DNA of 64,000 nt from Firmicutes bacterium HGW-Firmicutes-2 (GTDB taxonomy: Bacteria > Bacillota > Clostridia > Lachnospirales > Vallitaleaceae). Shown in pieces: positions 17,056 through 43,125 of this stretch. Numbering within the stretch: the first letter of the stretch is position 1; the number at the start of each line of letters is the position of its first letter. The DNA lies in NCBI GenBank assembly GCA_002841495.1, contig PGZV01000016.1:62001-126000 (forward strand). Reading direction: 5' to 3'. Under the pieces are notes generated by a model, which saw nothing but the letters and a program-made list of their open reading frames with translations, did not search any database and was not told the origin of the DNA. A program made the translations under genes and the position numbers.

Positions 17056-17188
17056 GACTTTTCTAGAGAACAAGAAAAGAAGCTTCGCTTCGTTATGAGC
17101 TCTGCTCATATTTCTGAATGGTTCGAAAGGAAAGGTCTTTGCTGCCACGCTTCAAGGCTGAATACTAAAGTATGACTTTCCTAGAGAA
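17056..17188 (+). repeat. Dispersed repeat family 1, copy A
   Basis: The copy is bounded by GACTTTTCTAGAGAA (17056-17070) and GACTTTCCTAGAGAA (17174-17188). Inside are AGAAGCTTCGCTTC and GCCACGCTTCAAGGCTGAA-like segments, shared in part with copy B near 41085-41110. It directly abuts the A-run of a terminator. No ORF is present. Confidence 0.7.
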
Positions 17189-17190
17189 TC

Positions 17191-17224
17191 AAAAAAGAGG
17201 TCAATCATGATTGACCTCTTTGCT
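17191..17224. terminator. Bidirectional terminator between mgsA and the P-loop gene
   Basis: AAAAAAGAGGTCAATCA pairs with TGATTGACCTCTTTG as a near-perfect stem, with an A-run on one side and T-rich sequence on the other. It sits between convergent genes. Confidence 0.85.
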
Positions 17225-17266: not shown

Positions 17267-17686
17267 TTAAGCCTTAATTAAGAATTCTTCTAGGAAATCA
17301 GGTATATTACAAGCATCGCAGGTTAAACTAAATACAAATCTAACGTCAAATTTATCGGATACAGCTTTTAATTTTTTTATTAATGCGTCTGATTTTGAAA
17401 CTTCATCAATGTGCGCTTGACGGAGAAGCCCATCAGCATAAACCTCAGTGATATCACTATCTTCTGATAAAATACCACACATGAATCCAAAAAATTCCTT
17501 ATAATCAGCAATTGGATAATCTGATATATTAATATATCGAATTTCGTGTCTTAAATCGTACATATGACTTGAATCCAAATCAATATAGACAATGTTTCCC
17601 TTAGTAGTTTTAAGAGCATTATTGGCCATATCGATTAATGCCTTTGTTTTACCTTCACCTGTGTCTCCTGCAACCAATCGTATCAT
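17267..17686 (-). CDS. Small P-loop ATPase-like protein of unknown function
   Basis: The 139-residue protein has a Walker A motif GDTGEGKT near its N-terminus and a strand IVYIDLD that could be Walker B. Similar short proteins in Clostridia are sometimes labelled PilT-like, but nothing here supports a pilus role. AAGGAGGAG precedes the ATG. It stands alone on the minus strand between two terminator or promoter regions, so it is a single-gene unit. Confidence 0.75.
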   Translation of the reverse strand: MIRLVAGDTGEGKTKALIDMANNALKTTKGNIVYIDLDSSHMYDLRHEIRYINISDYPIADYKEFFGFMCGILSEDSDITEVYADGLLRQAHIDEVSKSDALIKKLKAVSDKFDVRFVFSLTCDACNIPDFLEEFLIKA

Positions 17687-40910: not shown

Positions 40911-41136
40911 GAACAAAGAGGCTATGCCTCGCTTTGCAAAGCAAATTGTTCCGGCAGGAAAGATTTCCTTGATAGTTAATGCGACACTTCAACGCATTAA
41001 CATAGCATAGACTTTCCTAGAGTAGAACAAAGCGACTTCGTCGCGGTTTGCTTGCAAATTATTCCGGCAGGAAAGTACTATAACGTTTTCTGCCATGTTT
41101 CAAGGCTGAAAACTAGAGCATGACTTTCCTAGAGAA
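40911..41136 (+). repeat. Dispersed repeat family 1, copy B (two units in tandem)
   Basis: Unit B1 (40911 to about 41023) starts GAACAAAGAGGCTATGCCTC and ends with ACTTTCCTAGAG. Unit B2 (41024-41136) starts GAACAAAGCGACTTCGTCGC and ends GACTTTCCTAGAGAA. Both contain TTCCGGCAGGAAAG. The end abuts the A-run of the riboswitch terminator. The repeat thus lies in the leader between the glycine riboswitch and gcvT. Confidence 0.8.
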
Positions 41137-41137
41137 T

Positions 41138-41188
41138 AAAAAACAGAGTCCTAAAAGCACAATAAATAAGCACCTTTAAAACTCTGTA
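41138..41188 (-). terminator. Terminator of the glycine riboswitch expression platform
   Basis: On the minus strand CAGAGT plus AAAG pairs with CTTT plus ACTCTG, followed by TTTTTTATT. The 5' arm overlaps the end of the second aptamer, so ligand binding can prevent formation and turn on gcvT. Confidence 0.8.
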
Positions 41189-41336
41189 TGTTTACCTGAG
41201 AGTATTGCCCCTTCGGTGACCACTTAAGGTCTTTCCAGAGAGCTATCCTTTAGGGATCCTTTTGCCTGAAAGATTCTACATTCTAGGACTTGGAATGTAT
41301 TGCTTCTTCGGCGCCAACTGATGGTCTCTTTCCCTA
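41181..41336 (-). promoter_or_regulatory. Tandem glycine riboswitch upstream of gcvT
   Basis: Two aptamers are read on the minus strand. The first contains GGCGCCGAAGAAGCAA and TTTCAGGCAAAAGGA. The second contains CACCGAAGGGGCAA and CTCTCAGGTAAACATACAGAG. These GCCGAAG...GCAA and CTCAGGCAAA segments are the conserved core of glycine riboswitches. The gcv genes downstream confirm the assignment. A terminator follows immediately. Confidence 0.95.
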
Positions 41337-41361
41337 AAATCATTTAGCATAATCTACTATC

Positions 41362-42061: not shown

Positions 42062-42091
42062 GAGAAAAACAACAATGAGAAAAACAACAAT
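42062..42091 (+). repeat. 15-bp tandem duplication in the lexA 5' end
   Basis: GAGAAAAACAACAAT is present twice with no gap. The seam creates an in-frame TGA at 42076-42078 in the frame that would start at ATG 42028. Removing one copy restores an open frame through [10 protein letters not shown], the normal start of LexA helix 1. Confidence 0.9.
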
Positions 42092-42681
42092 TGATTCTAG
42101 ATTTTTTAAAGAAGGAGATCTTAAGTAAAGGGTATCCGCCGTCCGTCAGGGAAATCGGTGAAGCCGTTGGTTTAAAATCTACTTCTACTGTACATGGTCA
42201 TTTGGAACGTCTAGAGAAAAAAGGTATTATTCGTAGAGATCCTACTAAGCCAAGAGCGATTGAGATACTAGATGATGAGTTTAGTGTTCAAAGACGTGAA
42301 ATACTAAACGTTCCAATACTAGGACGTGTCGCTGCAGGAGAGCCTCTATTAGCTGTTGAAAATATAGAAGAATACTTTCCCCTACCGGTAGACTATGCAC
42401 CCAATCAGGAGTTGTTTATGCTTCGTGTTAAAGGTGATAGCATGATCAATGTAGGCATATTTGAAGGCGACTTAATTATCGTACAAAAACAATCAACCGC
42501 AACAAACGGTGACATCGTCGTTGCCCTACTTGAAGATTCCGTAACCGTCAAGACCTATTACCGTGAAAGTGATCACATTCGTCTACAACCGGAAAACGAT
42601 CAACTTGAGCCAATACGAGTTTATGATGATGCCATCGTGATCGAAGGTAAAGTCATCAGTTTGTTTAGACAATACATCTAA
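42091..42681 (+). CDS. lexA: LexA repressor, 5' end interrupted
   Basis: LexA represses SOS genes and self-cleaves when RecA is active. The winged helix-turn-helix ([20 protein letters not shown]) is present, as are the cleavage site Ala82-Gly83 (GRVAAGEP), the catalytic Ser117 (KGDSM) and Lys154 (VKTYY). The natural frame seems to begin at ATG 42028, GTG 42037 or GTG 42046, but a TGA at 42076 interrupts it. The longest open part starts at TTG 42091, which removes the first few residues of helix 1 and has only a weak RBS. Reinitiation at TTG, read-through or a sequence error are possible. Confidence 0.85.
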
Positions 42682-42728: not shown

Positions 42729-42772
42729 AGGTCTGCCTCAGAAAAAAAATCTGATTCAGGCCTTTTTTATTC
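42729..42772 (+). terminator. Terminator after lexA
   Basis: AGGTCTGCCTCAGA (from about 42729) pairs with TCTGATTCAGGCCT, followed by TTTTTTATT. Repeat copy C begins at the end of the T-run. Confidence 0.8.
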
Positions 42773-42884
42773 TCTAGGAAAGGCTGTTTTGTGTTAATGC
42801 GTTGAAGCGTCACATTAACTATCAAGGAAATCTTTCCTGCCGGAACAATTTGCTTTGCAAAGCGAGGCGTAGCCTCTTTGTTCT
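42771..42884 (-). repeat. Dispersed repeat family 1, copy C (inverted)
   Basis: Read on the minus strand it starts GAACAAAGAGGCTACGCCTC and ends CTTTCCTAGAGA. It is nearly identical to unit B1 over about 115 bp, including GCTTTGCAAAGCAAATTGTT and GATTTCCTTGATAGTTAATG. It abuts the lexA terminator. Confidence 0.85.
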
Positions 42885-42930
42885 ATGTGTGTCCAAAAAT
42901 TCATTTCAGTGCGACACCGAATGAGGAAAG

Positions 42931-43025
42931 AAAAAGTGCTGATTAATCACAGTTCTACATGGATGTAGAACGTCCTTCATTTTTACATGGATGTAAAATG
43001 GAAGGATGATTAAGCAGCACTTTTT
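42931..43025. repeat. Nested inverted repeat forming a three-way junction
   Basis: The outer arms AAAAAGTGCTGATTAATCA (42931-42949) and its near-perfect complement (43007-43025) pair over 19 bp with one mismatch. Inside are two hairpins, GTTCTAC-ATGGAT-GTAGAAC (42952-42971) and CCTTC...TTTTAC-ATGGAT-GTAAAA...GAAGG (42974-43005). Both share the loop ATGGAT. The outer ends are A5/T5, so it could act as a bidirectional terminator or as a structured RNA. It is in a 594-bp gene-free stretch. Confidence 0.65.
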
Positions 43026-43052
43026 ATTGACGAAATGACAACTTATTCCCAA

Positions 43053-43125
43053 GTAGATATAATACAAAGCTTTTCCGCTGACCGTACGAAGTGTAAGGCA
43101 AGGAAAAGTTTTGTATTATATCTAC
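43053..43125. repeat. Long inverted repeat, 24-bp arms
   Basis: GTAGATATAATACAAAGCTTTTCC (arms 43053-43076 and 43102-43125) matches its complement at 23 of 24 positions, with a 25-nt loop containing CCGTACG. Each arm contains TATAAT-like sequence. There is no T-run. Function is unknown; a small transposable element or an RNA hairpin are options. Confidence 0.65.

Follow-up and report, generated by a model that had tools for sequence, protein, structure and literature searches.

A family of small, folded, noncoding repeats in one orientation behind intrinsic terminators in relatives of Petrocella

In relatives of Petrocella (Clostridia, Lachnospirales, Vallitaleaceae), a small, folded, noncoding element of about 91-125 nt is present in dozens of copies, always in the same orientation, most of which, where the 3′ end is complete, stand directly behind an intrinsic terminator. 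The analysed stretch of 64,000 nucleotides (the window) comes from one such relative, a 3.52-Mb draft genome of 35 contigs (G000), which was compared with a congener (G006; one 3.52-Mb contig) and with more distant genomes. The single orientation, the sharp ends, the lack of a constant target duplication, the terminators present in empty sites and the arrays make targeted insertion behind a hairpin and T-run the simplest explanation, and we consider it rather probable that the repeat is a noncoding, two-domain mobile element that inserts one way behind terminator T-runs and is moved in trans, perhaps in single-stranded form. What moves small repeats in bacteria is in many cases not known; this family has a conserved fold, empty sites, boundaries and a landing rule that can be measured, and so renders the spread of such a repeat open to direct test.

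Units, modules and boundaries

The preliminary description of the window had pointed out three repeat places (17056-17188, 40911-41136 and, inverted, 42771-42884), which are as it described and form one family with four units (Table 1). It had taken the copies to end in a form of a 15-mer, and this is found exactly at 17174-17188 and 41122-41136 and with one mismatch at 17056-17070, 41010-41024 and 42770-42784. At up to three mismatches the window holds seven matches against 1.93 expected, a number reached in 2 of 100 shuffles; genome-wide, at most one mismatch yields 41 matches against one for the reversed pattern. A 133-base query finds 45 matches in G000, and 46 are obtained with a B-type query at E values up to 10. 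Module models applied to the fetched stretches identify 64 sites in G000 and 69 in G006, fragments included. The near identity of unit B1 and copy C holds at 93%; the recent spread read from it is a weak argument, because a copy in another species (G007) is, at 97% identity, closer to B1 than copy C is.

In the orientation of that description, the units are mosaics in which one of two 5′ modules (A or B) is combined with one of two 3′ modules (a or b). G000 holds 30 Aa, 13 Bb, 5 Ba and 3 Ab units besides 16 5′-only and six 3′-only copies; the corresponding numbers in G006 are 23 Bb, 19 Aa, 13 Ab, 18 5′-only and nine 3′-only. Some of the 5′-only copies may have 3′ variants that escape the models, and a short b form that lacks the inner hairpin exists. 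Orthologous sites can differ in type (24 and 25, Aa/Bb; 35, -a Aa/Ab; 6, Aa Aa/Aa Ab; 47, Aa/Aa Ab).

Read on the opposite strand, here called R, a unit follows a T-run and closes with a hairpin and T-run of its own. The R-left junction consists of a T-run, 1-3 bases and TCTCTAGGAAAG (34 a-type and 40 b-type junctions). The R-right end, a 5-pair hairpin followed by a T-run, closes with GCTTCTTTTCTTG in 47 A copies and with GCCTCTTTGTTC in 28 B copies, counted over copies whose match extends to the end of the model. The left end is not an inverted copy of either right end; the terminal inverted repeats by which MITEs are defined in excerpts of PMC3049150 are thus not seen. The four letters before the left end vary, and across the 74 junctions the T-run is the common feature, with no fixed short target word. 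A separate scan finds the unit's own end terminator-like in all four window units, and the main terminator scan does so for 83 of 98 copies outside the genus; since the T-run of each unit is predicted to pair with an inner strand as well (helix 3), these hairpins are described as terminator-like only. Tandem arrays occur in G000, G006 and G012, the one in G012 (L161) having a period of 118 bases and its own version of the inner hairpin.

Table 1. Units of the repeat family in the window and the terminators that they adjoin
Feature	Position	Strand	Basis
Unit 1, type A-a, 118 nt	17071..17188	- (R reading, TCTC end first)	R1 match 17072-17187, 54.8 bits; boundary analysis
Own end of unit 1: 5-pair hairpin then TTTTCTTG, terminator-like	17079..17091	-	terminator scan
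Left-end remnant of another unit, in head-to-tail order with unit 1	17056..17070	-	one mismatch to 15-mer
Terminator stem; unit 1 adjoins its T-run	17194..17221	-	terminator scans
Unit 2, type B-b, 113 nt; units 2 and 3 are head to tail	40911..41023	-	R1 match 40911-41023, 120.4 bits
Own end of unit 2: hairpin GAGGC.ATA.GCCTC + TTTGTTC, terminator-like	40918..40930	-	separate scan
Unit 3, type B-a, 112 nt	41025..41136	-	R1 match 41025-41135, 103.2 bits
Own end of unit 3: hairpin GCGAC.GAA.GTCGC + TTTGTTC, terminator-like	41032..41044	-	separate scan
Terminator stem of glycine riboswitch leader; unit 3 adjoins its T-run	41143..41187	-	fold (site 44), scan, Rfam riboswitch
Unit 4 (copy C), type B-b, 113 nt	42771..42883	+	R1 match 42771-42883, 114.3 bits
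Own end of unit 4: hairpin GAGGC.GTA.GCCTC + TTTGTTC, terminator-like	42864..42876	+	separate scan
Terminator stem downstream of lexA (42091-42681 +); unit 4 adjoins its T-run	42729..42763	+	scan, site 45

Terminators and empty sites

Terminators adjoin all three sites in the window, with the stem ending 6, 10 and 7 nt from the unit in the scan. The adjacency noted in the preliminary description therefore holds, with the correction that the terminator serves the strand opposite to that of the 15-mer. The terminator at unit 1 is preceded by a minus-strand ORF (17267-17686) without NCBIfam match. That at copy C is the terminator of lexA and was missed by a simpler scan that flagged the units' own ends. 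That at unit 3 belongs to the glycine riboswitch and stands upstream of gcvT, with units 2 and 3 in between (40911-41136 with 41244-41343). These two units put two terminator-like hairpins, both on the minus strand, into the gcvT leader, and an effect on regulation is possible. The family adds such hairpins behind many genes, and the gcvT leader offers a place to measure their effect on expression.

For the genome-wide test, copies with a complete 3′ end were scored for a terminator whose stem ends no more than 20 nt from the R-left end. A terminator aimed at the unit is found there in 59 of 93 copies from G000 and G006 (27/45 and 32/48, respectively), compared with 7 of 105 on the other side (3/49 and 4/56) and 7.05% of 4000 random intergenic positions; the distances from stem to element cluster at 5-14 nt. 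The T content of the last 12 nt is 7.7 versus 4.0. Where a T-run of at least five is present (53 copies), a hairpin precedes it in 85%, as against 47% of 235 control T-runs, and the 40 copies without such a run have a hairpin in 55%. The same one-sidedness recurs outside the genus, with 45 of 80 R-left sides against 5 of 79 other sides among 98 placed copies, 17 of which are preceded by another unit. This set derives from 122 matches (93 used, five sense-strand copies added, the other 24 being weak opposite-strand matches at the same places), includes some poorly bounded matches as well as near-identical pairs from G010 and G011, and omits nine unfetched hits (G220 four, G035 two, G010 two, G011 one). 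By simple ORF calls, 70 of 90 sites have an R-left gene that is read in the R direction, and 2 of 93 copies lie inside an ORF.

The remaining 34 of the 93 copies were not called beside a terminator. Inspection by eye revealed terminators with larger loops, beyond the limits of the scan, at sites 7, 12, 48, 55 and 72, and T/C-rich places just upstream of ribosome-binding sites at 3, 24, 30, 63 and 122. The uncalled G006 sites 66, 70, 71, 104 and 128 are all located within another repeat, X, and because of this shared location they probably represent one insertion event carried along by X. This second structured dispersed repeat also occurs in the window beside copy C (42891-43059), and the fetched stretches contain 15 match rows of it (four in G000 and 11 in G006, split copies being counted twice); five G006 copies of X harbor an A-a unit within X's inner hairpin, and three G000 copies do not. 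A third structured repeat, Y, was observed at L178 (G000:C15, about 160.6 kb) and elsewhere; it accounts for 19 match rows from G000 and 15 from G006 stretches. A D2-like domain is present in some of its copies, and Y may be related to the present family by modules.

Comparison between the congeners provides the second line of evidence. Both flanks of 28 G000 sites were found in G006 stretches, 17 of them with a called G006 element in between, a set that is biased towards occupied sites because the stretches are centred on G006 copies. For the remaining sites, 36 flanks sought in G006 gave 33 matches, of which 30 were fetched and 22 resolved well enough. Seven sites are cleanly empty in G006 (0, 2, 21, 26, 39, 50 and 52). 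A terminator stands in four of them (0, 26, 39 and 52) and also at site 44, the window site 40911-41136, which was kept out of the clean set because the G006 sequence may be a decayed left end. At site 2 G006 has no T-run, at site 50 the hairpin is weak, and the site 21 target is itself similar to a B end, with the look of a decayed one. No constant target duplication is seen at the seven sites, and the target site duplication typical of MITEs is likewise not found: 0-1 nt are shared at sites 0, 26, 39 and 50, and at sites 2, 52 and 21 the last 6, 5 and 10 nt of the target, respectively, match the constant right end of the element, such that a short duplication there would be inseparable from a prior likeness of target and element end.

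Clean empty sites would represent the older state, although in a comparison without an outgroup an empty site could also reflect precise loss. Scars in G006, where 7-11 nt of the left end are kept at sites 11, 31 and 63 and more at 19, indicate that some absences are losses and that deletions occur; at sites 1 and 17 the G000 unit is truncated and target sequence is missing. As for the other window sites, G006 has no unit at site 43 (unit 1), where the flanks are too diverged to place the junction, and at site 45 (copy C) its sequence behind the terminator can be read as a decayed end.

The preliminary interpretation as a whole is therefore partly supported. Of its two proposals, a possible role in 3′ end processing and targeted insertion at terminators, the latter gains from the one-sided, one-orientation adjacency in two species, repeated outside the genus, and from those empty sites of the congener in which the terminator already stands. 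The genome copies, once scored for distance, do not mostly lie away from terminators, and the repeat is in general no ordinary part of longer duplications, the five G006 copies in repeat X being the exception.

Fold, distribution and the search for a mover

Nineteen copies from three genera fit one structure, with 95.0% of 605 cells paired, a fit that is favoured by the structure having been drawn from the same 19 sequences. Of its 32 pairs, 19 have changed on both sides, and covariation reaches 0.451 compared with 0.131 for shuffled alignments (none of 500 attains the observed value) and at most 0.103 when the structure is slid. The predicted fold has two domains: D1 is a three-way junction, and D2 is built on the stem GGAAAG/CTTTCC, whose inner hairpin is exchangeable. 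Folding energies vary between types: the A-type window copy gains nothing over its shuffled versions (z -0.41 and, for the opposite strand, -0.01), the B-type window copies reach z -1.86 and -3.28, and copies from two other genera -2.23 and -5.16.

The structure model (R1) detects the A-type window unit though it was built without any A module. Among 392 genomes sampled in the order, it finds the element in 19, namely 17 of 22 in the family and 2 of 370 others (G035 and G220), with copy numbers that are lower bounds since nine candidates were scored per genome; plain DNA queries reach 7 and 12 of the 22 family genomes. An exact scan of genome contigs for the 29-base core of the A module, possibly excluding the window's own genome records, returned 29 stretches, in Petrocella sp. 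FN5, the MAG HGW-Firmicutes-3 and one contig end binned as HGW-Tenericutes-2. This last stretch (L110 4285-4313) comes from the same metagenome series as HGW-Firmicutes-3, and its placement is probably a binning error. No match was found in viral contigs with one B-type pattern, or in plasmids and phages with one B-type query each. In the Rfam search of the whole window, the glycine riboswitch alone reaches its gathering score and no family, group II introns included, does so over an element; six further loci gave no gathering-score match over an element, and at E up to 5 the region 42740-43080 returned sub-threshold matches only. Elsewhere in G000, L175 4411-4529 is a molybdenum/tungsten cofactor riboswitch (RF01055). 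A literature search that reached few subscription journals found no description of the repeat family.

As the preliminary description stated, no transposase lies inside the window units, and the search for a transposase or autonomous partner of the repeat found none. Half-copies in the fetched stretches were inspected by eye for halves a few kb apart on one strand. The pair G000 C25:19001 and C25:21086 was discarded as a single transposon because its members match two separate G006 elements, one of them complete. The Y1 HUH transposase was rejected as the present mover since PF01797 has no match in G000 (98.19% complete) or G007, which both hold many copies; it is thus missing in two of the four genomes of the genus, G006 and G008 having one each. 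As to reverse transcriptases, RVT_1 was found in 20 of 22 family genomes and gave no match in G017 and G020. Those of G000 and G006 lie in group II introns (RF00029) and carry, by eye, an HNH-like motif at the end. Group IIC intron proteins have no endonuclease according to excerpts of PMC7161350, and a class IIC enzyme was rejected on these grounds. One group II intron with an HNH-like end (L304 781-2562) is located in an apparent helicase gene, identified by eye, of a G000 conjugative element.

Competing explanations and known systems

In the proposed mechanism, the element would fold as a single strand into D2 and D1 and insert in one orientation, making no constant target duplication, directly behind the T-run of an intrinsic terminator or, less often, behind other T-rich tracts. 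Its trailing end on R has the target's own shape, a hairpin and T-run, so that each copy would become a new landing site; head-to-tail arrays would follow because the end of an inserted copy serves as such. An enzyme provided in trans would recognise the hairpin and T-run in one strand, at the target as well as at the element end, and the element would travel as a single strand, either DNA or RNA. A bolder version, which we regard as possible but doubtful, holds that the family is a selfish nucleic acid of a new class that uses terminators both as its address and as its own end: its RNA would obtain a 3′ end by intrinsic termination, the mobile unit would extend from terminator end to terminator end and make its own landing sites, and activity borrowed from the host or an intron would replace a transposase of its own.

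Transposition as an IS200/IS605- or REP-type element, in which single-stranded DNA is moved by a Y1 HUH transposase possibly lost from some genomes, appears unlikely. IS200/IS605 elements rely on guides and cleavage sites, and here the T-rich left flank and the T-rich right end would be cleaved, with the strand pairing with the right end (GAACAA in B) acting as guide. Hairpins near both ends, the pairing of the right end with an inner strand (helix 3), the missing terminal inverted repeat and constant duplication, and the target's similarity to the right end at sites 2, 21 and 52 are in line with it, whereas no fixed tetranucleotide precedes the left end and the enzyme does not follow the element: G000, G007, G016 and G017 carry the element without PF01797, and G002, G004, G019 and G020 have PF01797 where the model detects no element.

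We judge improbable, too, an RNA route, in which an R-strand RNA terminating at its own hairpin and U-run would be attached behind a terminator and then copied into DNA by a reverse transcriptase acting in trans, as group IIC introns do on their own behalf. The unit boundaries coincide with two terminator-like ends and RVT_1 is nearly general in the family, but G017 carries the element without an RVT_1 match. A GUGYG start is a hallmark of group II introns, and the unit has none. In excerpts of PMC7161350, group IIC introns are said to recognise the terminator stem-loop, which suits the route, and their proteins differ from the HNH-ended enzymes of G000 and G006.

A resident regulatory module, such as a second terminator or transcript stabiliser, selected and multiplied by recombination without being mobile, would explain why the fold is conserved across genera, why every unit supplies a terminator-like hairpin oriented like the gene upstream and why the R-left gene so often runs in the R direction; set against the empty sites in the congener, the different modules at orthologous sites and the insertion inside repeat X, it seems quite unlikely. 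Least probable of all is a passive pattern of insertion anywhere with survival only in harmless places: the regions behind terminators should indeed tolerate insertions and few copies lie within an ORF, but survival predicts neither one side nor one orientation (59/93 versus 7/105), nor distances clustered at 5-14 nt where random intergenic positions qualify at 7%.

Targeted insertion behind terminators, as favoured here, has partial parallels in several known systems. Nearest in choosing stem-loops is IS1272, which in excerpts of PMC5678879 targets them without target duplication, as found here; however, it replaces the stem-loop and has a transposase gene and inverted ends, whereas the present element leaves the terminator standing. 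IS200/IS605 elements and REPs with TnpA-REP (excerpts of PMC6006769 and PMC8266576) share hairpins near the ends, the lack of inverted terminal repeats and a target similar to the element end, but the target here is a T-run rather than a fixed short word, and Y1 is missing in two of four genus genomes. Group IIC introns occupy the same landing place, behind an intrinsic terminator stem-loop, in excerpts of PMC7161350, which cites Robart 2007 for insertion after intrinsic terminators; the present unit, in contrast, measures about 110 nt, and no ribozyme or reverse transcriptase was found in it. For the IS200/IS605 model the enzyme is missing here, and for the group IIC model the ribozyme and protein. 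Nearest in kind are the pneumococcal BOX elements and SPRITE, likewise small interspersed repeats: excerpts of PMC3049150 describe BOX as assembled from interchangeable modules and as having a predicted fold, the mixing of modules being seen here too (Aa, Bb, Ba, Ab), and SPRITE as resembling a Rho-independent terminator and enriched near gene 3′ ends. The present family, likened to both by description rather than sequence, differs in landing one-sidedly behind an existing terminator and in showing covariation across several genera.
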